DNA from: an uncultured archaeon
GTDB lineage: Archaea > Halobacteriota > Methanosarcinia > Methanosarcinales > Methanoperedenaceae
DNA: 15,335 nt
Direction of reading: 5' to 3'
NCBI GenBank assembly: GCA_902386085.1
Contig: CABMIA010000190.1
Span: 1-15,335 of the forward strand
Shown: positions 1,017 through 14,849 of the stretch, one piece after another
How positions within the stretch are numbered: the first letter of the stretch is position 1
Layout: each line of letters opens with the position of its first letter
Made by a program: the position numbers and the translations under genes
The notes under the pieces: model-generated
The model's database searches: none
What the model was told of the DNA's origin: nothing
The model's input: the letters and a program-made list of their open reading frames with translations, nothing else

Positions 1017-1274
1017 TCAATCCTCTTTTAGATGAAATTTATATTTGATAAATAAATTTCTCACCTGCTTAATCTGATATTGCTTTGCGTTTCCATCTTT
1101 CAACGGTTGTACGTTAATTATTTCAAAAACATGTTCTTTAGAGAAAATATGGTGGTCACCTCGTATTCTTTCCAAAAAACCGTATCGTAATAAAAGCTTT
1201 CTTAAATCTTGAAATTTTATGTTTCTGTCATTTCTGCCAGTGAGAATTTTATCCAGAACTTTATCCATACTCAT
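1017..1274 (-). CDS. hicA: HicA-family mRNA interferase toxin
   Basis: An 85-residue protein of the HicA toxin family, dsRBD-like ribonucleases that cleave mRNA during translation arrest. The signature is LLLRYGFLERIRGDHHIF (about 27-44), with the catalytic histidine in GDHH (41-42), followed by EIINVQP and the conserved tail KQYQIKQVRNLF. The length is normal for the subclass with an N-terminal extension, so the toxin looks intact. The order here is toxin first, antitoxin second, as in most hicAB loci. Its ATG overlaps the stop of a small upstream ORF (ATGA at 1271-1274), which suggests translational coupling. An in-frame ATG at 1268 is a possible alternative start. Confidence 0.9.
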   Translation of the reverse strand: MSMDKVLDKILTGRNDRNIKFQDLRKLLLRYGFLERIRGDHHIFSKEHVFEIINVQPLKDGNAKQYQIKQVRNLFIKYKFHLKED

Positions 1275-1426
1275 TGCTCATTTGTTTTTTCTTTCATAAT
1301 TTGAATGATTTTTTTGATTTCTTTTTCTGGTTGAGTTTCATCTCGTCTTTTATATCGGCTTATCTCATCTTTTATTATCAATGCCAATTCTTTGCCTAAT
1401 CTTGGTTTGAGATTTAAAATGTCCAA
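1271..1426 (-). CDS. Small unrecognised ORF coupled to hicA
   Basis: A 51-residue reading frame opens at a TTG (1424-1426), reads MDILNLKPRLGKELALIIKD and then a highly charged Lys/Glu-rich helical tail, and its TGA overlaps the hicA ATG by the ATGA arrangement. I do not recognise it. An ATG at 1446-1448 in a neighbouring frame would give MKLEEVS and then join this frame if one base were shifted, so the annotated start may hide a frameshift or an older, longer gene. The position inside a pycB-to-pycA cassette and the coupled stop/start favour a real member of the toxin-antitoxin transcript, but the size and weak start keep confidence low. Confidence 0.35.
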   Translation of the reverse strand: MDILNLKPRLGKELALIIKDEISRYKRRDETQPEKEIKKIIQIMKEKTNEQ

Positions 1427-1470
1427 TAGAGACTTCTTCTAATTTCATACTTCTGTTTTTTTGAATATGA

Positions 1471-3183
1471 TTATCCAATCACAATCAGTGCATCACCTGC
1501 ACTTACCGTGCCGCCCTCTTTAACAAAGATATCCTTGACAGTGCCTGCGTGCGGCGCATGGATATTATTTTCCATTTTCATGGCTTCAAGAACCAGCACT
1601 ACATCCCCTTTGGTCACAGCGTCGCCTTTTTTTACCTTTATCTTCAGTACCATGCCCTGCATGCTTGCATTAATTGCCCCGTCCACGGATTTTGAACGTT
1701 CCGCCTCTGCCGGCTTGACAGACATCCCGCCCCCGGCGGATAGGATTTTCACATTGAATAAGTCGCCATCAACCTCTACCTTGAACTCGGTAGGCAGGGG
1801 CGCAGCTTTTCCATTGCCAGGCCTCGGAGCTTCAAGCGTCTCTTCTTTTGCTTCGCCGCGCAAGAACTTTGGGGCTATCGCAGGATACAAAGCGTAGGTA
1901 AGAATATCTTCAGGTTTCCTGACGATCCCGAGCGCATTCGCCTCTTTCGTTACTTTATCAAGTTCAGGCGGCAGGAGATCCGCAGGCCGGCAGGTGATGG
2001 GTTTTTCATCACCCAGTATCCTGGCGATTATTTCCCTGCTTATCGGGGCAGGCGTGCGCCCGTATAGGCCCTTGACGTAATCCTTCACTTCTTTCGGAAC
2101 AACTTTGTAGCGTTCACCCATCAATACGTTCAGCACAGCCTGAGTGCCCACGATCTGGCTTGTGGGAGTGACGAGAGGAGGATAACCCAGTTCTTCACGC
2201 ACTTTTGGCATTTCGGCAAGAACAGCTTCGTATTTATCAAGGGCATTCTGTTCTTTTAACTGCGATACGAGATTGGAGAGCATCCATCCCGGGATCTGGT
2301 ATTTCAAAACATTCGTATCTATCCTTTCTGAGATCGGATCGAGGATGCCGCGGTATTTTTCTTTTACCTCTTCAAAGTATTTTTTTATCTCTGTGAGCAG
2401 GAAGAGGTCAAGACCGGTATCATAAGGCGTTCCTTTAAGCGCTGCAACAATGGTCTCTGTTGGCGGCTGAGACGTGCCCCATGCAAATGTCGAAAAAGCC
2501 GTATCCAGGATATCAACCCCGGCCTCGCATGCAAAAAGATAGCTCATCGGCGCCATCCCGCTCGTGCAGTGGCTGTGCAGGTCAACCGGGATGCTTATTT
2601 CTTCTTTCAGCGCGCTTACAAGGTCAAAAGCATTCTGCGGCGAGATAAGTCCCGCCATGTCCTTGATGCACAGGGAATCGCATCCGAGTTCCTCAAGTTC
2701 CTTTGCCATCTTTACATACAGGGGGATGGGATGCACCGGGCTTATGGTATAGCAAACCGTGCCCTGCACATGAGCACCCACGCGTTTTGCGGTCGAAATC
2801 GACACTTCCATGTTACGAATGTCGTTGACAGCATCGAAAATCCTGAATATGTCAATCCCGCTCTCCGCTGCATGCTCAACGAATTTGACTACAATGTCAT
2901 CAGAATAATGCCTGTAACCCACAAGGTTCTGGCCGCGCAGCAGCATCTGGAGGGGCGTTTTCCGGATGGCTTTTTTAAGGGCGCGAAGCCTGTCCCAGTG
3001 ATCTTCGTTCAGATAGCGTATCGAGGAGTCAAAAGTAGCCCCGCCCCACACTTCAAGCGAAAAAAATCCAGCCTCGTCCATCTTCTCTGCAATGGGAAGC
3101 ATATCTCTTGTTCGCATCCTCGTGGCGATGAGGGACTGGTGTGCATCTCGAAGCGTAGTGTCTGTGAGTTTTACCTGGGGCAT
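1471..3183 (-). CDS. pycB: Pyruvate carboxylase subunit B (carboxyltransferase plus biotin carrier)
   Basis: A 570-residue protein, full length for the archaeal/OadA-type subunit. It transfers CO2 from carboxybiotin to pyruvate, giving oxaloacetate for anabolism. The N-terminal HMGL-like TIM barrel starts with TDTTLRDAHQSL (7-18), with metal ligand D13. The active-site lysine is in CIKDMAG (K174) and metal-binding histidines are in DLHSHCTSG (H203, H205). A conserved carboxylase domain follows, then a linker rich in Pro/Ala/Gly and a C-terminal biotinyl domain with EAMKMEN, the biotinylated lysine being about residue 536. No Shine-Dalgarno site is visible before the ATG. An AT-rich TATA-like element near 3217-3226 may give a short-leader transcript. 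Oxaloacetate decarboxylase alpha subunit is the main alternative label; the linked biotin carboxylase gene argues for pyruvate carboxylase. Confidence 0.94.
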   Translation of the reverse strand: MPQVKLTDTTLRDAHQSLIATRMRTRDMLPIAEKMDEAGFFSLEVWGGATFDSSIRYLNEDHWDRLRALKKAIRKTPLQMLLRGQNLVGYRHYSDDIVVKFVEHAAESGIDIFRIFDAVNDIRNMEVSISTAKRVGAHVQGTVCYTISPVHPIPLYVKMAKELEELGCDSLCIKDMAGLISPQNAFDLVSALKEEISIPVDLHSHCTSGMAPMSYLFACEAGVDILDTAFSTFAWGTSQPPTETIVAALKGTPYDTGLDLFLLTEIKKYFEEVKEKYRGILDPISERIDTNVLKYQIPGWMLSNLVSQLKEQNALDKYEAVLAEMPKVREELGYPPLVTPTSQIVGTQAVLNVLMGERYKVVPKEVKDYVKGLYGRTPAPISREIIARILGDEKPITCRPADLLPPELDKVTKEANALGIVRKPEDILTYALYPAIAPKFLRGEAKEETLEAPRPGNGKAAPLPTEFKVEVDGDLFNVKILSAGGGMSVKPAEAERSKSVDGAINASMQGMVLKIKVKKGDAVTKGDVVLVLEAMKMENNIHAPHAGTVKDIFVKEGGTVSAGDALIVIG

Positions 3184-3327
3184 ATTTCTGTGGGCTTAAT
3201 AGGTTGCAGTGTTATTTAATTTATGGTATTTTTCAGTTTCTGTCACTCATTTTCTCACGTTGTTTATATCCTGTTAAAATCCAAGATTTTAACCATTGAA
3301 GGCAATGTACCTTTGATGGATATTTGC

Positions 3328-3404
3328 TCAACACTACAAAGAACGCGAAGAGAGCAAAGTCTATTAACAACAATCTTTGCGAACTTTGCGCTCTCTGCGG
3401 TTGA
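3328..3404. repeat. Imperfect inverted repeat (REP-like)
   Basis: Left arm 3328-3359 and right arm 3375-3404 are imperfect reverse complements around a 15-base loop. Both ends share tcaac/gttga and both inner ends share caaag/ctttg, with repeated gcgaaag- and gagagc-like words inside. Short repeats of this ctttgcg/ctctgcggtt style are scattered through many environmental genomes, probably as REP or MITE-like elements; that is recalled rather than measured here. The surrounding 3184-3477 gap holds no gene that I can support. Confidence 0.55.
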
Positions 3405-3447
3405 AAACTCTGTTTTCGCAATCGAAAGTAAACCTAAATGACAGAGC

Positions 3448-3457
3448 ACAAATATAT
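3448..3457 (+). promoter_or_regulatory. TATA-like element before the STAND gene
   Basis: acaaatatatg lies about 26 bases before the GTG at 3478. That is the usual TATA-to-start distance in archaea, and no Shine-Dalgarno motif precedes the GTG. The gene is therefore probably transcribed as a leaderless mRNA starting at or near the GTG. This is a positional inference only. Confidence 0.4.
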
Positions 3458-3477
3458 GAAGAGAAATAGATGATAAC

Positions 3478-4614
3478 GTGAAACACTTCCTAGTTTATAT
3501 CGATTCTTTAGGATATGAAAAAAGAGCAGAGGAGGATGCAAAAAATACAGATCGTCCTGTAGAGGATATTCGAGAGTCGTATATAGATAGCATTGAGAAG
3601 AGATTGAAAGAACTTAAGAAAAGAGAGATTATAGAAAATTATAAAAAATCAGAGTATGGTGATGATTTTGTTGTGTTCACAGATAGCATCTGGAACGCTT
3701 TTAAAAGCATTGGTGAAGTTTTAAAAGCTAATTTGCCTCTTGCTATAGGTATTGGTTTTTTGAAAGTTGATGATTTGTATTTGATTGAACGAAGTAATGA
3801 AACGATATCAAACCTTAAAACCTACGTAGTTCCCAAATATAAAAATTTCTACGAAAGGGAGTATGGCGAACATTCGTTGACGCAAACCTTTATCCTTTTT
3901 ACACCAGAAGCATACGAGCAGCTCGACTCAAAAAGGAGATGTTCTAAACCATACCCATCTGCAGAATTTTATTCTATCGAGAGAAATGAATTTGAAAAGG
4001 AGTTAAAAGTTCTTGAATTTCTTGAGAAAATAGGCTCGCATAGGACTGAATACAGAGAAATAGAAGAACTGTATGTGGCGCCAAAGAACTATGATATGAT
4101 TAAAAGCATATTGGAAAAGCATAATATTGTTTTCATTGTTGGCGACGCAGAAATGGGTAAGACATATACAGCGATCAAGCTGCTATTGGAATATTCCAAA
4201 GGTTATGAACCTAAATATATTCCTGAAGAGAGAAGAAAAGATCAGTGGGAGTTTATCAGACAAAATGTTGACTTTGATGACAAAGTGATTTATTTTGAAG
4301 ACCCTTGGGGGAAAGTAGAATTTGAGACACCAGAGAGTCTCTTAACAGAGATAGGAAGTATCATTAGGGTAATAAAGAGAAAAAGATGCAAGATAATTAT
4401 AACTTCGAGAGAGAAAGTTTTCAAAGAATTTGAAAAAAGAAAAGAAATTTCAGAAGATTTGTGGCAATACGTGGTCCAGCTCAAAGTGAATTCGTCATAC
4501 AGCAGAGAAAATTTGAAGGCCATACTAAAAAAATATATCGATGTTTTTGAGCCGATATGGGCTTGTGATAAAGGACTAAGAACATTGCTTTTAAAGCAAT
4601 CGGAGTTAAGCTGA
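3478..4614 (+). CDS. nSTAND3-type NTPase with N-terminal nucleotide-cyclase-like domain (fragment 1)
   Basis: This 378-residue piece starts at GTG 3478; an in-frame stop at 3457 leaves no earlier start. Residues 1 to about 185 resemble a class III nucleotide cyclase palm: a first strand FLVYIDSLGY with candidate metal ligand D9, a hairpin YGDDFVVFTD with D62/D63, a strand PLAIGIGFLKVD (87-98), and a late segment FILFTPEAYEQL (138-149). Residues about 197-365 are the NTPase: P-loop GDAEMGKT (222-229), Walker B-like VIYFEDPWG (270-278), the ED-P-aromatic-G form typical of nSTAND3, and a sensor-like IIITSRE (306-312). From about residue 368 the reading leaves the true frame and stops at TGA 4612-4614. 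The NTPase assignment is firm; the cyclase reading is pattern matching on motifs. Confidence 0.8.
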   Translation: MKHFLVYIDSLGYEKRAEEDAKNTDRPVEDIRESYIDSIEKRLKELKKREIIENYKKSEYGDDFVVFTDSIWNAFKSIGEVLKANLPLAIGIGFLKVDDLYLIERSNETISNLKTYVVPKYKNFYEREYGEHSLTQTFILFTPEAYEQLDSKRRCSKPYPSAEFYSIERNEFEKELKVLEFLEKIGSHRTEYREIEELYVAPKNYDMIKSILEKHNIVFIVGDAEMGKTYTAIKLLLEYSKGYEPKYIPEERRKDQWEFIRQNVDFDDKVIYFEDPWGKVEFETPESLLTEIGSIIRVIKRKRCKIIITSREKVFKEFEKRKEISEDLWQYVVQLKVNSSYSRENLKAILKKYIDVFEPIWACDKGLRTLLLKQSELS

Positions 4615-4622
4615 GAACTCCA

Positions 4623-5057
4623 ATGAGCGTCAAGAAATTAATAGAATCTTCAAAAGATGTGAGAAGCATAGATAGTTTCTGGGTTGTGATTGAGAAAGCA
4701 TCTGAAGAAACAAAAATAGCATTTGCCAAAGAGATAAAAGAAATATTCAACAGAGAAGAATATGATAAACTAGTCTTTCTAAGTTTTACTTACATAGGGA
4801 TAGAACATAATGTTGCCAAATCATATTATATAGAGATTTTAGCAAATTTAGGATATAACTTAATTAAAGCTAAAGATTTTGATGATTTTTTGGAAGAATT
4901 TAAAGAGGTTGAAACTCTTAAAGCATTAAGATACATTCATCCGTCATACGAGGATGCTTTCGGACTTGCATTGACTGATTCCGGCAAGCCCAATAATATC
5001 TGCAAGAACATATTTTCGAAAGTCTTATTTAGCTCTCAGAAAAGGGTGACGCGATAG
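4623..5057 (+). CDS. STAND protein middle fragment (winged-helix/arm region, out of frame)
   Basis: The frame is open from 4572, and the first ATG in it is 4623, giving 144 residues. MSVKKLIESSKD, a helical segment, then RYIHPSYEDAFGLAL resemble the region that follows the NTPase core in nSTAND3 proteins, where an IHPSY/FHPSF-like motif is common. Reading upstream of the ATG gives NIAFKAIGVKLRTP, which joins naturally to the first fragment, so the ATG is unlikely to be a genuine start. No ribosome site precedes it. The frame ends at TAG 5055-5057 just after the point where the repeat region continues in the next frame. I treat it as part of one broken gene. Confidence 0.55.
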   Translation: MSVKKLIESSKDVRSIDSFWVVIEKASEETKIAFAKEIKEIFNREEYDKLVFLSFTYIGIEHNVAKSYYIEILANLGYNLIKAKDFDDFLEEFKEVETLKALRYIHPSYEDAFGLALTDSGKPNNICKNIFSKVLFSSQKRVTR

Positions 5058-6124
5058 AGAAAGTTGCAATTTCTATTGCTGATAACTTCGATAAACTTCC
5101 AGATGATGTAAAGATTAAACTATTGCTCAAACTCTCAGAAAATAAGATTGTTGCGAAAAGTGTTGCAATATCTTTAATATTTTATTTTGATCAACTCGCT
5201 GAAGATGTCAGGAACAAAGTATTGATAAATCTAAATCTTTCTGGGAAAGATGCAGTTGCATGGGTTGTAGCAAGATTTTTAGCAGATAATTTTTACAAGC
5301 TCCCAGAGGATTTATTATTGAAGCTTTCTTCGAACGATGAAGCTGCATGGGGTATTGCAAAGGGTATAGCAAACAATTTCGATAAATTTCCTGAAGAAAT
5401 ACGAAATAAATTATTGCTAAAACTCTCTGAGAAGAGTGAATCTGCATGGATTGTAGCAAGAATTATAGCAGATAACTTCGATAAACTTCCAGAGGATTTA
5501 AGGGATTTGTTTTTTGAACTCTCTGAAAAAGATAATGCCGCTGTGATGTTAGTATGGGTAGTGGCAGATAATTTCGATAAACTTCCTGTAGAACAGGGAA
5601 AGAATATACTATTAAAATTTTCTAATAATTATGATGCATTAAGTAGAGTAGTATGGGCCATAATGAATAATTTTGATAAGATCCCAACAGATACAAGATA
5701 TGAAATATTACTTAAACTTTCAGAGAAGAAAAATGTGGCAAGTACAATAGCATGGGCTTTGGCAGATAATTTCGATAAGTTTCCAGAAGATATTAGAAAT
5801 GAACTACTGAATAAGCTTTCGAAGATGGATGGAACTGCTGTGGATATTACAAGAATGTTAGCAGATAATTTTGATAAAATCCCGGAGGATATAAGGAACC
5901 TGCTATTTAAATTCTCTGAGAGAGACGATGTTGCATGGTGTGTCGCAAAGATGTTAGTCAATAATTTCGATAAACTCCCTGAAGATATACGGGACAAACT
6001 GTTGATTAGCCTTTCAAAGAAAGATGAAACTGCAAGGATTGTAGCAAAATCGATAGCGAATAATTTCGATAAACTTTCAGAGAATGTTAGATATTTATAT
6101 GAAAAAGTAGCTATAATATTATAA
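5033..6124 (+). CDS. STAND protein C-terminal helical-repeat fragment
   Basis: Open from 5033; the first internal ATG is 5123 (333 residues), but repeats already begin before it with ADNFDKLPDDV, so that ATG is not the true beginning. About eleven copies of a 31-34-residue unit follow. The unit runs approximately as PEDIRNKLLLKLSEKDD, then an Ala/Trp/Val-rich helix, then ADNFDKL. Each unit predicts two helices, so the whole should form a HEAT- or TPR-like superhelix. The DNA copies are also similar: gataatttcgataaa-like words recur about every 93-99 bases. In STAND proteins such a C-terminal array usually senses the ligand. The final unit decays into LYEKVAIIL before the TAA, so the C terminus looks natural. 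A T run follows at 6125-6130. Confidence 0.6.
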   Translation, partial: LSEKGDAIEKVAISIADNFDKLPDDVKIKLLLKLSENKIVAKSVAISLIFYFDQLAEDVRNKVLINLNLSGKDAVAWVVARFLADNFYKLPEDLLLKLSSNDEAAWGIAKGIANNFDKFPEEIRNKLLLKLSEKSESAWIVARIIADNFDKLPEDLRDLFFELSEKDNAAVMLVWVVADNFDKLPVEQGKNILLKFSNNYDALSRVVWAIMNNFDKIPTDTRYEILLKLSEKKNVASTIAWALADNFDKFPEDIRNELLNKLSKMDGTAVDITRMLADNFDKIPEDIRNLLFKFSERDDVAWCVAKMLVNNFDKLPEDIRDKLLISLSKKDETARIVAKSIANNFDKLSENVRYLYEKVAIIL

Positions 6125-7691: not shown

Positions 7692-7735
7692 GTCGCATTG
7701 GAATGTATCGAAAAGGGGGTACGAATAACTTCTCA

Positions 7736-7972
7736 TTATTTGGACGGGTTAATTGGTCCTCTCTTCTTGGTAGTAGCTGCTCCGCACTTTGCCATTTCTA
7801 CTTTTCTTGGATTTTGCGTATACCCTAGCCGTAGATATTTTGTCTTCTTATCGGTTATTTTATTCTTTGCAATAGAACCAACTTTGTTAGTCCCCCATTC
7901 TTTTACATACTTTGTTTCCATTGCCTTCGTGAATATTGGCATCTTATGTCTTTCAAGATGGTGATGTACCAT
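7736..7972 (-). CDS. Small basic protein of unknown function, 78 residues
   Basis: Reads MVHHHLERHKMPIFTKAMET, then KYVKEWGTNKVGSIAKNK, and ends CGAATTKKRGPINPSK. It is rich in Lys/Arg/His (net strongly positive), with one Cys and no membrane segment or recognisable zinc motif. Gene status is supported by a strong ribosome site, AGGAG, six bases before the ATG at 7970-7972, and by AT-rich promoter-like DNA upstream. An internal ATG at MPIFTK is an alternative start. The composition suits a nucleic-acid-binding protein, but nothing more specific can be said. Two hairpins lie downstream of its stop. Confidence 0.6.
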   Translation of the reverse strand: MVHHHLERHKMPIFTKAMETKYVKEWGTNKVGSIAKNKITDKKTKYLRLGYTQNPRKVEMAKCGAATTKKRGPINPSK

Positions 7973-8193
7973 AATAATCTCCTATTTTTGCTGTTTAAGA
8001 TAGTCTTGTTAAGAACATAAGCTTTTGTGTTCAAATATTCTATAAATTATATTATTTCTTGATTAATTAAGCTAAATACGCTATACTAGGTCTCAAAATA
8101 CGAAAAAAGACTAATATGTGTTTAGCATATTGATTTCCGATTAATTATGTAAAACGTTTTAATATAACATTATACACTTTAAAATTTAGATGT

Positions 8194-8637
8194 TTAAATA
8201 AAAAATAAAATAAAAAATACCATAGCAAGTGCAATTTCAACAGATAGAGAGATAAGTGCCAATTTTAAAAAATTATGTGCTAGACTAGTGATACAGGTCC
8301 ATTCTTTTTGCTCATTATCTGTCAAAGAATGCTTTCGCTTATAACGATAATCTAAATGTCGACTATGTGATTCAAGCCCAAAATATATATTTAGCAATGA
8401 AAAAGCAGACGTTAATAAACCAGCGATAGAAGAAATTATTACAAACCACACAAGATTTCCTACTTCATTGCGGTATTTAATAGTAAAATCGACTAAGAAA
8501 GCTATAATGGCAGCACTTCCAGTAATTAAAAAATAAGTAAGTTGCTGCTTAAAATCAAGAAACTTTTCAACCTGAGCATCAACTTTAAACCCATATTCGT
8601 CATCTCCATTTTGATTTTGAGGTTGGTCATTACCCAT
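8194..8637 (-). CDS. Three-helix membrane protein of unknown function
   Basis: 147 residues. A polar, Asn/Gln/Asp-rich N terminus of about 20 residues is followed by VEKFLDFKQQ, then TM1 (about 31-52), TM2 (about 61-88), a charged cytosolic loop with SRHLDYRYKRKHSLTDNEQK (91-111), and TM3 (about 122-147) reaching the C terminus. There is no signal peptide. The layout, short helices with a soluble connecting segment, resembles small SLATT-like membrane effectors associated with nucleotide-signalling immunity, but no diagnostic motif is seen and the likeness is only in layout. AGGAG lies about eight bases before the ATG, and a second ggagaaaatagg copy lies just upstream. The 220-base gap to the basic-protein gene downstream on the same strand is very AT-rich and empty. 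Confidence 0.65.
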   Translation of the reverse strand: MGNDQPQNQNGDDEYGFKVDAQVEKFLDFKQQLTYFLITGSAAIIAFLVDFTIKYRNEVGNLVWFVIISSIAGLLTSAFSLLNIYFGLESHSRHLDYRYKRKHSLTDNEQKEWTCITSLAHNFLKLALISLSVEIALAMVFFILFFI

Positions 8638-8644
8638 TCCCGAT

Positions 8645-8662
8645 TCTCCTATTTTCTCCTAT
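8645..8662. repeat. Duplicated ribosome-site-like word
   Basis: tctcctat occurs twice, ten bases apart (8645-8652 and 8655-8662). On the minus strand this gives two ataggaga motifs upstream of the membrane-protein start; the nearer copy is the likely Shine-Dalgarno site. Confidence 0.4.
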
Positions 8663-8668
8663 TAATAG

Positions 8669-8788
8669 TGCGCACACATTTCAATGCAAAATACTATTCT
8701 AATCGTCAGTATATTAATTTTTTGCCAGAGAGTTCATTGTGTAGAGTTCATTGATTCATGATTTGTACTGCGCACACAGAATGCAAAA
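8669..8788. repeat. Pair of direct repeats, tgcgcacaca ... aatgcaaaa
   Basis: tgcgcacaca followed by aatgcaaaa is found at 8669-8691 and again at 8769-8788, with a spacer of four bases in the first copy and one in the second. A separate 11-base word agagttcattg is repeated at 8729-8739 and 8743-8753 between them. These could be operator sites, or relics of the mobile element whose transposase debris lies next door. No gene is visible in 8640-8835. Confidence 0.45.
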
Positions 8789-8835
8789 CCCGCTGAACTA
8801 AGCATTTCTAAGCCTAGAAGTCACATACACCGTAC

Positions 8836-9150
8836 TTAAGAACGAGGCCTGTACATATCGCTTTTTGCATGGTGTGTATCCTGACCGCTTATATATTTCT
8901 CAACAACCTCCTATCCATTCCCTACAGACCCATGGTAGCAGCTCGGAGCCCATAGATGCTCCCCACAAAACTCCCTGAGATGGGGAAATTCTTTCCTGAG
9001 TATCCTGCTTGTCCGTCCTTTCAGTCTCTTTGCGATAAAACTGAGCGAATATTTCGGCGGGTATTTGAAAAATATACGGACATGGTCGGGATTTACCGCA
9101 ATTCGATTATTGCAGTATAAGGGGCGTCTGTATTCGTCTGCGGGTTTTTG
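8836..9150 (-). pseudogene. IS200/IS605-type transposase (TnpA) remnant
   Basis: Minus-strand translation recovers pieces of an IS200-like Y1 transposase: EYRRPLY, then NPDHVRIFFKYPPKYSLSFI, AKRLKGRTSRILRKEFPHL and REFCGEHLWAPSCYHGSVGN, then after an in-frame TAG EVVEKYISGQ, which contains the position of the catalytic tyrosine. The HUH motif is damaged (HVR where HVH is expected), the stretch between the start region and NPDHV is far too short, and no start codon is evident. The element is therefore dead. I found no clear hairpin ends. The relic fills most of the gap before rubrerythrin. Confidence 0.75.
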
Positions 9151-9249
9151 GTCGCACCAATGCGCAACGCAACAGCCTCATTATTTCCAAAAGCTTATAC
9201 ACATAAAAACCAAGTTATTCTACCATAAAAAACAATGCGAGGATTTCGA

Positions 9250-9822
9250 ATGAACTTTAAAGGCAGCAGAACCGAAAAGAATCTTTTAGCAGCATTTGCC
9301 GGGGAATCCCAGGCAAGGAACAGGTACACATATTTTGCAGGCGCGGCAAAAAATGAAGGACTTGAGCAGATCTCCGGGATTTTCCTTGAGACTGCGGACA
9401 ACGAAAAAGAACATGCCAAAGTCTTCTTCAAGCACCTCCAGGGAGGTAGCGCTGAAATAACAGCTATGTATCCGGCAGGCGTGATCGGAAAGACCGCAGA
9501 CAACCTCTTTGCAGCCGCGGAAGGGGAAAAACTGGAATGGGAGACGCTCTATCCCGGATTTGCAGAAGTTGCGAAAGAAGAGGGATTCCAGGCTGTCGCT
9601 GACTCATTTACTGAAGTCGCTGAAGTGGAACGCTTTCATGAACGGCGATACAGGGAGCTAATAAAGAATGTAAAAGCAGGCTCTGTCTTCAAAAAGAACA
9701 AAACCGTAAAATGGCACTGCAGGAACTGCGGGTATATCCATGAAGGCACAGAAGCGCCTGATGTATGCCCTGCTTGCAAGCATGCCCGGTCATATTATGA
9801 GGTACTTGCAGAGAACTGGTAG
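9250..9822 (+). CDS. rbr: Rubrerythrin
   Basis: 190 residues, normal for rubrerythrin, a cytosolic non-haem peroxidase that reduces hydrogen peroxide in anaerobes. The ferritin-like diiron domain is complete: E19 in AFAGESQARNRY, E52/H55 in NEKEHAK, E93/E96 in EGEKLEWE, and E127/H130 in EVERFH. The C-terminal rubredoxin-like domain has CRNCGY (C157, C160) and CPACKH (C173, C176). I choose the ATG at 9250 because GAGG lies seven bases upstream and family members begin close to this point. An in-frame ATG at 9235 would add five residues and has no ribosome site. The gene is followed by a cysteine-cluster gene seven bases downstream, so the two probably form an operon. Confidence 0.95.
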   Translation: MNFKGSRTEKNLLAAFAGESQARNRYTYFAGAAKNEGLEQISGIFLETADNEKEHAKVFFKHLQGGSAEITAMYPAGVIGKTADNLFAAAEGEKLEWETLYPGFAEVAKEEGFQAVADSFTEVAEVERFHERRYRELIKNVKAGSVFKKNKTVKWHCRNCGYIHEGTEAPDVCPACKHARSYYEVLAENW

Positions 9823-9829
9823 TTTTCCT

Positions 9830-10255
9830 ATGAGTGGCACAAATGGCGCCCTTGATTGTGATATCAAGCTCTGCGATTCGCTTTGCTGCCGCAACTGTCC
9901 TGTTCTCACAGAAAATGAGGCCGCGGAGTTGATCGAAAAGGTCAGGAAAGAATATGGCCTGGAGCTTGATCCAAAAAAGTATTTCAAACAGGCGGCGGGA
10001 GAGCACGGGCTGTACTATGCTGTTAAGATGATCAAAGGACAGTGCATCTTCCTGAACAGGGAGAAACGCTGCCGCATATACAGATGCCGCCCGACATTGT
10101 GTGAATTGTATCCAGTCATTGATGTGGATGCGGTGGATGAGCGGTGCCCAATTGTCGGGGAACTCCCTCATGTGATGCTGGCCACTTTGAAGCAGCGGTA
10201 TGCTGATGAGGTTGATAAGAGGGTAAAGATGGAGCAGACGTTCAGGTTTGTTTAG
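9830..10255 (+). CDS. YkgJ-family cysteine-cluster protein
   Basis: 141 residues beginning MSGTNGALDCDIKLCD. Cysteines are arranged as C-x5-C-x3-CC-x2-C near the N terminus (CDIKLCDSLCCRNC), and again as GQC, then C-x4-C-x4-C in CRIYRCRPTLCELYP, the pattern of the YkgJ / UPF0153 putative Fe-S or zinc-binding family. The biochemical role of the family is not settled. Seven bases separate it from the rubrerythrin stop, with no independent promoter, so co-expression with the peroxide-defence gene is likely. The ATG at 9830 has only a weak ribosome site, consistent with translation from the upstream gene. Confidence 0.85.
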   Translation: MSGTNGALDCDIKLCDSLCCRNCPVLTENEAAELIEKVRKEYGLELDPKKYFKQAAGEHGLYYAVKMIKGQCIFLNREKRCRIYRCRPTLCELYPVIDVDAVDERCPIVGELPHVMLATLKQRYADEVDKRVKMEQTFRFV

Positions 10256-10281
10256 GGAAGGATAATAAAAGGTAAAAAATC

Positions 10282-10575
10282 ATGAGCAGTATAATTTATA
10301 ACGGTGTAGAAGCGCTAGTTAAAAGGGGTATTTATTCCACAAAAGATGAACTTATCGAAGACGCCCTGAGAACTTTTTTTGAGTTTAGAAAGGATATGCG
10401 GGTAGCTGCAGTAATAGAGTTATATAAAACTGAAGAAATGTCTATTTCAAAGGCCGCTGAGTTGGCAGGAGTAAGCACGGAAGAGATAAAAGATTTTTTG
10501 GAAAAGGCCGGGGTAAAGATAAGGAGAGGTTTATCAGGAGATAAAGGGTCACAACTGGCAAGGCTGGTTAGATGA
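10282..10575 (+). CDS. UPF0175-type antitoxin
   Basis: 97 residues. The N-terminal part (NGVEALVKRGIYSTKDELIEDALRTFF) is ribbon-helix-helix-like and is followed by a helix-turn-helix SISKAAELAGVSTEEIKDFLEKAG, the arrangement of UPF0175 proteins, which act as antitoxins to PIN-domain toxins. Its stop overlaps the start of the next gene (ATGA, 10572-10575), the classic coupled toxin-antitoxin layout. An aaaggt motif lies before the ATG. It probably represses its own promoter. It appears intact although the toxin is shortened. Confidence 0.85.
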   Translation: MSSIIYNGVEALVKRGIYSTKDELIEDALRTFFEFRKDMRVAAVIELYKTEEMSISKAAELAGVSTEEIKDFLEKAGVKIRRGLSGDKGSQLARLVR

Positions 10576-10883
10576 TAATCGATACCTGTATCTTGAGTTC
10601 CCTTGCAAAAATAGATAGGTTAGATTTATTGGATATCCTATTCAAGAAGCATATCTGTTATATTACATCATCAGTGTTAAATGAATTAAACGCAAACAAG
10701 ATTGCAGGGTTTAAATTTGTTGAGAAAATTGAGCAAATGGTAAGATTCATCGATGCAAAAAATAAAATTTGTGTCTTATCACCAGCTTTAGAAGAAATTA
10801 CTGAAAATCTGAAGCAAAAAGATTACTATCTGTTTTCCGAAGATGATCTAATGGGACTTTTTGCTTTTTTCCCAAACAATTAA
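10572..10883 (+). CDS. PIN-domain toxin, C-terminally shortened
   Basis: 103 residues of a PIN-like ribonuclease (VapC/DUF3368 style). Visible: MIIDTCILSSLAKIDRLDLL with the first acidic residue D4, SSVLNELNAN with E38, and FSEDDLMGLFAF (88-99) corresponding to the conserved S-x-x-D-x2-A segment with D91/D92. Relatives continue for about 40-60 more residues through a TDD-like strand with the last acidic residue; here the protein ends PNN right after the third acidic position. I saw no continuation in the other two frames, so a deletion is more likely than a single frameshift. The remaining protein may fold poorly and be inactive, leaving an orphan antitoxin. Confidence 0.7.
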   Translation: MIIDTCILSSLAKIDRLDLLDILFKKHICYITSSVLNELNANKIAGFKFVEKIEQMVRFIDAKNKICVLSPALEEITENLKQKDYYLFSEDDLMGLFAFFPNN

Positions 10884-10963
10884 CTATCCTTTATTAAGCC
10901 ATTTCCCGGAAAATAGTTGAAAATTATGTTAATGGAATTAGTTCAAAGAATTTTTTATACATC

Positions 10964-14081: not shown

Positions 14082-14849
14082 ATGGGACTCGACAGAGTTT
14101 ATTATATTAGGATTTCTGAAGATGCGTCAATTCAATTAATTCTTAATGCACTTGAAGCTTACAGTGTTTTTCATCAAGGAAAGAAGAAAGCTAAGACTTG
14201 CTTGGAAACTTATGGATTACTTTGGGGACATGAAATCAATCTCTCTAAAAATAAAGATACTCTTTATTCTATTGAATTAATATCTATTGATACATCAGCA
14301 GAGAGGGAGCGTAGCTTCTGCAACCCAAACGAATCAGCATTAAAATTGAAAAGAGACCTTATGACGTCATTTTGGCCGTATTACGATTTTTTAGGGGATG
14401 TTCACACGCATCCTTATGAAAAAAATTATACCCATGTGTGCAGTAAAAAATATTATAACTATAGTACGGATGACTTTAAAAGATTGGAAGATTACAGCGA
14501 ATATTGGAAAGAACATAACTATAGAGTCGGTTTAGTTCTAACAATAGCGCTAATGGATAAAGCAGGCACAAAGGATCCTATTTATAAACCAGATAATATG
14601 ATTGAATTCACATTAGGAAACTATAGACTTTGGCTTAAAGGTCACGTTTTATATGAAGATTCAGAAGAAAATGAAGATAGTGAAAAAAGAACGGCATTAA
14701 AGGTTACTGATCATGATGAAAAAAATGTTTTTTTAGATTGTCCTTCTTTATTTGGGCTAAAAACCGAATTTACTCAATTTGGTAGGAGAAGAACAGGACC
14801 TGGTGAAAAACATATACCAAGCGATATTTTAAACAAAATTAAGTTATAG
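14082..14849 (+). CDS. JAMM/JAB (MPN)-domain metalloprotease-like protein
   Basis: 255 residues. The JAMM zinc site is recognisable: the catalytic glutamate in ETYGLLWGH (E42), the HxHP motif in GDVHTHPY (H108, H110), and S128-x2-D131 in YSTDD. The spacing between HTHP and the Ser is about 16 residues instead of the usual 7, so there is an insertion containing an extra His and Cys (THVCSKKYY). JAMM proteins remove ubiquitin-like modifiers or process cysteine-carrier proteins, and in prokaryotes they also occur in defence loci. Residues beyond about 150 hold a second strand-rich part, an acidic stretch EDSEENEDSEKR, and the tail RRRTGPGEKHIPSDILNKIK. AAGGAG (14071-14076) is a strong ribosome site. 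No E1, E2 or ubiquitin-like gene is in view. Confidence 0.75.
   Translation: MGLDRVYYIRISEDASIQLILNALEAYSVFHQGKKKAKTCLETYGLLWGHEINLSKNKDTLYSIELISIDTSAERERSFCNPNESALKLKRDLMTSFWPYYDFLGDVHTHPYEKNYTHVCSKKYYNYSTDDFKRLEDYSEYWKEHNYRVGLVLTIALMDKAGTKDPIYKPDNMIEFTLGNYRLWLKGHVLYEDSEENEDSEKRTALKVTDHDEKNVFLDCPSLFGLKTEFTQFGRRRTGPGEKHIPSDILNKIKL

Follow-up and report, generated by a model that had tools for sequence, protein, structure and literature searches.

What kind of protein is encoded at positions 3478–6124 on the plus strand of a contig from an uncultured Methanoperedenaceae archaeon, and could it act in defence? The stretch analysed, referred to here as the window, comprises 15,335 nucleotides of contig CABMIA010000190.1 (assembly GCA_902386085.1). 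A first-pass annotation made from its sequence had described a conceptual protein of ~880 residues with a cyclase-like N terminus, an nSTAND3 nucleoside triphosphatase (NTPase) and helical repeats. We found that these domains are present and that the coding region is spread over three frames. Our preferred reading, held with about even confidence, is that the gene once encoded, and now carries in broken form, an Avs5-like STAND sensor with an N-terminal effector domain of class III cyclase fold.

The predicted structure of the N-terminal domain (residues 1–199, positions 3478–4074, with a GTG start) has a class III cyclase fold. An AlphaFold2 model of this domain (predicted local distance difference test score 83.5; predicted template-modelling score 0.82) matched class III cyclases in both Foldseek and VIA, with likeness covering residues 1 to ~175, consistent with the palm or class III cyclase N terminus suggested earlier. 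A non-palm fold or an unconserved acidic pair had been named beforehand as grounds for abandoning that suggestion, and neither was found. The Cas10 palm, mCpol (Panoptes) and GGDEF domains are palms with a metal acid pair; however, class III cyclase alignments reach further along our domain, and in Foldseek mCpol (9pd0) ranked 13th and GGDEF 40th, with class III cyclases higher. A Cas10-like identity was rejected on this ranking. What points to kinship with class III cyclases is the modelled structure and the placement of motifs, not sequence. A PDB sequence search with the domain returned no cyclase (best E 1.3), nothing in BFVD matched at E ≤ 0.001, and Pfam found no family common to two members among 17 N-terminal domains of the family described below. 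A second PDB search, with a profile, matched the designed repeat protein k-cTRP5 (E 2.3e-12, profile positions 15–76) and TIP-alpha (E 0.0016), which we take as chance or helix composition. No SIR2 match was found in the frame-1 piece of the gene.

The predicted metal site is formed by two motifs, IDSLGY (3499–3516, with D9 at 3502–3504) and YGDDFVVF (3655–3678, at the β2/β3 junction, with D62 at 3661–3663). Conservation of this acidic pair had been proposed, and it was borne out in an alignment of 17 domains from 16 loci (two domains counted for L032) with a median pairwise identity of 30%: D9 is aspartate in 16 and glycine in one, and D62 is aspartate in 16 and asparagine in one. This alignment left out L056, which has an odd partial N-terminal duplication with both motifs present, L060 (broken) and L059 (partial). 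R32 (16/17), Y121 (15/17) and K114 (14/17) are also kept. The sole exception at both aspartates is L022, from genome G113. Its nSTAND3 protein (7706–10885) has ~195 further N-terminal residues without a Pfam match and a cyclase-like domain lacking both metal acids.

The second domain (residues 199–354, positions 4072–4539) is an nSTAND3 NTPase: PF20720 matched at E 1.5e-22 and 80.4 bits, well above the curated cut-off of 27.2, and Walker A and B motifs and C-terminal repeats accompany it, in agreement with the first-pass annotation. PF20720 also matched all six cyclase-headed relatives scanned (L020, L021, L026, L028, L036 and L056), and the region matched the PADLOC candidate family PDC-S73 (E 3.7e-12). 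In five aligned sequences, G222, E225, G227, K228 and T229 of the P-loop GDAEMGKT (4141–4164) were invariant, as were Y272, F273, E274, P276 and G278 of the Walker B-like YFEDPWG (4291–4311). All four motifs picked out in the first pass (IDSLGY, YGDDFVVF, GDAEMGKT and EDPWG) are present. A linker (4623–5057) leads to the tail (5057–6124), which has 11 repeats of ~33 residues that are probably helical. An NFDKL-type motif recurs 11 times at intervals of 29–35 residues, mostly 33, close to the roughly eleven repeats of 31–34 residues seen in the first pass. Self-identity of the tail at lag 33 was 0.307, compared with at most 0.145 in 500 shuffles (lags 20–59). No Pfam repeat family scored above its cut-off in the tail, where DUF6525 passed on a 14-residue stretch; the PADLOC model OloA matched the tail (E 3.2e-6), and HEAT_2 matched a relative with another head just under its cut-off. 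'HEAT-like' is a fair description of the tail, not a test.

The three frames follow one another as frame 1 (3478–4614, 378 residues, with a stop at 4614), frame 3 (4623–5057) and frame 2 (5057–6124). Tracing with five relatives by tblastn recovered the same frames in the same order, with switches near 4578–4605 and 5027–5072, and placed the linker and, together with the motif spacing, the repeats. Either the gene has decayed or the assembly is wrong at the frame changes. Programmed frameshifting was rejected, as 10 of the 17 loci described below keep a single frame from start to stop and the copy in genome G433 is broken too. The host genome (64% complete, 207 contigs) contains only one copy. 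The gene has a G+C content of 33–34%, compared with 47–50% in flanking genes; this is no proof of origin because two further stretches of the window are equally low.

To place the gene among its relatives, 1,843 genomes were searched in overlapping groups, several of which were sampled, and genome contigs were searched once. Counting the window's own genome, 17 of 149 relatives' genomes matched at E 0.001; in this search four others displayed the whole architecture. The contig search returned 13 loci, including ones from Aenigmatarchaeota, Hydrothermarchaeota, Altiarchaeales, Methanophagales, Lokiarchaeota and Chloroflexota; three pairs are the same place (L037 and L018, L030 and L057, L035 and L059), and L020 and L021 were not returned. 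A five-row alignment matched 6 of 30 genomes in the genus of G090 and 10 of 392 in the phylum, 4 of 53, 2 of 29 and 1 of 400 genomes in further groups, and 4 of 227 genomes in which the cyclase part was found only in L036's own genome. In total, 17 loci combine a cyclase-like head with nSTAND3; the degenerate L022 and the partial L059 stand outside this count. Intact homologues, which the first-pass annotation had proposed to look for, make up 10 of them, with a single frame from a usual start to a stop (L018, 9465–11897; L019, 9281–11605; L020; L021; L026; L028, 7642–10308; L029; L032; L056; and L057). L036 and L058 have one frame throughout and no usual start ahead of the first motif, L027 and L033 leave the contig end, L031 seems to stop early, and L060 and the window copy are broken. 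The family is rare and patchy. Searches of plasmids and phages returned no relatives, viral contigs contained one nSTAND3 relative with a different head (L039), and another viral scan found none. Within the family, L032 (7808–11913) has tandem cyclase–nSTAND3 genes in Altarchaeum, the Altiarchaeales locus L029 has a truncated duplicate (8244–8489), and the L019 protein has about two repeats followed by what appears, by eye, to be a GNAT-like acetyltransferase end.

The same NTPase is found with other heads: SIR2_2 (L023), NERD (L025), Mrr_cat (L062), PNP_UDP_1 (L038) and, barely above cut-off, CN_hydrolase (L039); L034 and L061 are nitrilase-like by eye only. In a tree of 29 NTPase rows, the cyclase label changed 4 times, compared with 7.9 in shuffles. 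L022, L059 and L060 were labelled cyclase in this tree, L097 (a duplicate of L038), L099 and L011 were dropped, 14 of 26 forks are open and two long branches meet. L061 falls within the window's supported set of four (100/96). As judged from these sequences, the pattern is that of a STAND sensor whose effector can be exchanged. Among the other architectures, L038 (9221–11125) encodes a Lokiarchaeal nucleoside phosphorylase–nSTAND3 protein, and the nitrilase-like proteins of L034 (9440–12373) and L039 (7044–9983), from one Chitinophaga and one viral-collection contig, end in a PUA domain. An unusual fusion of nSTAND3 to a Ras/Roc-type GTPase (PF00071, E 9.7e-28) is encoded at L098 (G1097, 1132–3474), from the same phylum as the Lokiarchaeal genome G514.

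Avs5 offers the closest comparison; for this and every other paper cited by PMC number, what we report is drawn from extracts. Avs5 is an antiphage nSTAND3 protein with C-terminal repeats and an N-terminal enzyme domain (PMC12931631); the head is SIR2 in Avs5 and a predicted class III cyclase fold here, in a family that is mostly archaeal in our sampling. Class III cyclases such as Ma1120, Rv1900c and the soluble and guanylyl cyclases share with our domain the fold and the two metal aspartates in matching motifs, whereas our domain lacks their canonical lysine, Asn-x3-Arg and Pfam match. Its model also contains a 22-residue helix (107–128), longer than is usual in class III cyclases. In mammalian soluble adenylyl cyclase (ADCY10), too, the class III part precedes a predicted STAND region (PMC12802110), but it comprises two cyclase domains rather than one; the comparison concerns domain order. 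The iSTAND2 and VMAP ternary systems, predicted conflict systems, also join cyclase domains to STAND or related NTPases (PMC8195603, PMC7159879), although these are multi-gene systems with other NTPases, and the extracts name nSTAND1 and nSTAND2, not nSTAND3. No class III cyclase–nSTAND3 protein appeared in the titles and abstract openings of the matches listed in the full-text literature, where subscription journals are few, and word finds for cyclase and STAND in two archaeal surveys (PMC12988326, PMC4158269) showed none. Because cyclic nucleoside monophosphate (cNMP) cyclases in STAND-like conflict systems and soluble adenylyl cyclase are already known, an nSTAND3 protein with a cyclase-fold head is a variant, not a new category.

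How might such a protein work? If it is a STAND sensor, the repeats would lock an unbroken protein in a closed state until a foreign molecule, probably of viral origin, binds to them. By analogy with other STAND proteins, nSTAND3 would then bind ATP and the proteins would assemble. In class III enzymes a catalytic site arises where two cyclase domains meet; assembly would therefore bring the heads together in pairs and, as the fold and the retained aspartates suggest, may activate nucleotide chemistry that depends on metal ions. The result would be either a nucleotide messenger or the destruction of nucleoside triphosphates. For the signal-making archaeal sensor envisaged in the first pass, the predicted cyclase fold, the aspartate pair, the STAND-like architecture and the swapped heads speak in favour, whereas the canonical substrate residues are missing.

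Several observations weigh against our preferred reading, beginning with the broken state of the window copy. Canonical class III cyclases have a lysine four residues before the second aspartate and an Asn-x3-Arg after β4; only 2 of the 17 domains have this lysine, and 2 have, at unrelated positions, an Asn-x3-Arg between β4 and β5. Three PF00211 domains from Sinorhizobium pSymA carry both features, although the search pattern that yielded these yardsticks, Asn-x-[AS]-[AS]-Arg, already demands the second one, which leaves only their lysine as independent evidence. None of the 17 domains matched PF00211 in Pfam at E 1, and hhalign against the three pSymA domains aligned only the β1 motif (probability 0.2%). 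No clear defence gene was found at 12 of the 17 loci in the stretches fetched and annotated, for which no background rate was measured. A Pycsar system consists of a cyclase gene and a gene for a cyclic-nucleotide-binding effector; no partner able to bind a messenger was conserved in the neighbourhoods, viewed by eye and in part scanned.

Because the canonical lysine and Asn-x3-Arg are missing, we call the domain class III cyclase-like rather than a class III cyclase. From the aligned residues, the metal site looks used, and the base-specific and transition-state parts look non-canonical; as a guess, K114 could substitute for the arginine. The same absences would fit a catalytically dead domain that instead serves for dimerisation and for binding a nucleotide or metal, and thereby controls the STAND switch or brings in a partner; several vWA-fused cNMP cyclase domains of conflict systems are described as inactive and perhaps merely nucleotide-binding (Kaur 2020, PMC7159879). 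We regard this explanation as possible but rather doubtful, as both metal acids persist across domains this diverse and are lost together in the single exception, and the domain occupies the position of enzyme domains in sister proteins.

Gene neighbourhoods bear on two further explanations. Flanks of ~5 to 21 kb per locus were inspected, with hidden Markov model scans, mostly partial, for L020, L021, L026, L027, L029, L032, L033, L036, L056, L058 and the window, and by eye for the others. Clear defence genes, of restriction–modification or CRISPR systems, adjoin 5 of the 17 loci, a raw count without a background rate: type III-F genes at L020, type III-C genes at L021, an AccI-type restriction–modification set with Mrr_N at L026, a type ISP methylase at L033 and, at L056, a type I set whose hsdS (by eye) and hsdR flank the gene. 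Weaker candidates are found at L027 (AAA_21, DUF499) and L029 (Schlafen AlbA_2, nSTAND1). The defence neighbours predicted in the first pass exist at some loci and point to a possible role in defence. A regulatory STAND protein outside defence, comparable to mammalian soluble adenylyl cyclase, with its similar domain order (PMC12802110), or to STAND transcription regulators, would suit the housekeeping-looking neighbours seen by eye at several loci. We think this improbable, as the patchy spread over distant phyla, the head swapping and the restriction or CRISPR neighbours fit defence better.

The CRISPR-linked copies raise the other explanation, that the protein provides the signalling or effector function in type III systems where Cas10 is no longer a cyclase. 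The L020 gene begins ~250 bases away from a long CRISPR array, and 136 bases separate its end from cas10f downstream; the L021 gene starts 68 bases past cmr3, with an array some 9 kb away; both lie on the same strand as these cas genes. Both Cas10 proteins lack GGDD. Type III-C is described as having neither cyclase active sites nor known effectors, and the III-F systems in that set as lacking cyclase motifs and effectors (Hoikkala 2024, PMC11229360); a 2025 classification counts III-C, and not III-F, among inactivated subtypes (PMC12669027). The L020 and L021 proteins share 35% identity along most of their length, yet pair in the NTPase tree at 96/78, just below the tree's own mark. However, the other 15 loci, viewed in part by eye and in some cases with short flanks, showed no cas genes, and a k-mer scan picked up no array there; the window has no cas gene among ten scanned open reading frames (ORFs), and no array. 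Among 185 genomes, 4 carry a III-F-like and 13 a III-C-like Cas10, which makes 16 genomes in all as G036 has both; only G090 and G131 of these 16 have a cyclase-headed match. Five other III-C/III-F-like loci that were fetched (L081–L085) contain no cyclase-headed gene. PF22335 matches 37 of the 185 genomes at ~39 places, a number that includes seven of the III-C-like kind; with ~17 of ~49 type III loci being of the III-C/III-F kind, two of two would arise by chance about 1 time in 8. An obligate CRISPR component was rejected, as most III-C/III-F-like genomes lack the gene. The linkage of the two copies is a lead, and we consider the CRISPR explanation unlikely. A bolder reading, which we also think improbable, is that a class III fold without its cNMP-specific residues acts like a Cas10 palm on metal acids alone, makes an unknown nucleotide product upon STAND pairing, and has been recruited in III-C/III-F systems to restore in trans the signalling of a cyclase-dead Cas10.

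Should an unbroken copy of the proposed STAND sensor prove to be antiviral, cyclase-fold domains would be added to the effector heads of nSTAND3 proteins, and this in archaea, where STAND immunity is, to our knowledge, little explored. Coupling the pairing need of class III cyclases to the assembly switch of STAND proteins would be a simple and testable design, and the missing canonical residues raise the question of what the head makes. The CRISPR-linked pair, if more than coincidence, would suggest a replacement for lost Cas10 signalling.

Elsewhere in the window, the only defence-type neighbours are small toxin–antitoxin-like genes. At 10282–10883, a UPF0175 protein and, after it, an ORF with weak PIN likeness are a likely toxin–antitoxin pair, and a HicA-like ORF on the minus strand (1017–1274) scored under the cut-off (E 1.2e-4). 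Also on the minus strand, a small protein that looks membrane-like by eye (8194–8637) weakly matched the PADLOC SAVED_TM effector (E 0.0011), and an ORF at 14082–14849 gave weak JAB-domain matches (E 0.16 in Pfam, 0.021 in PADLOC).
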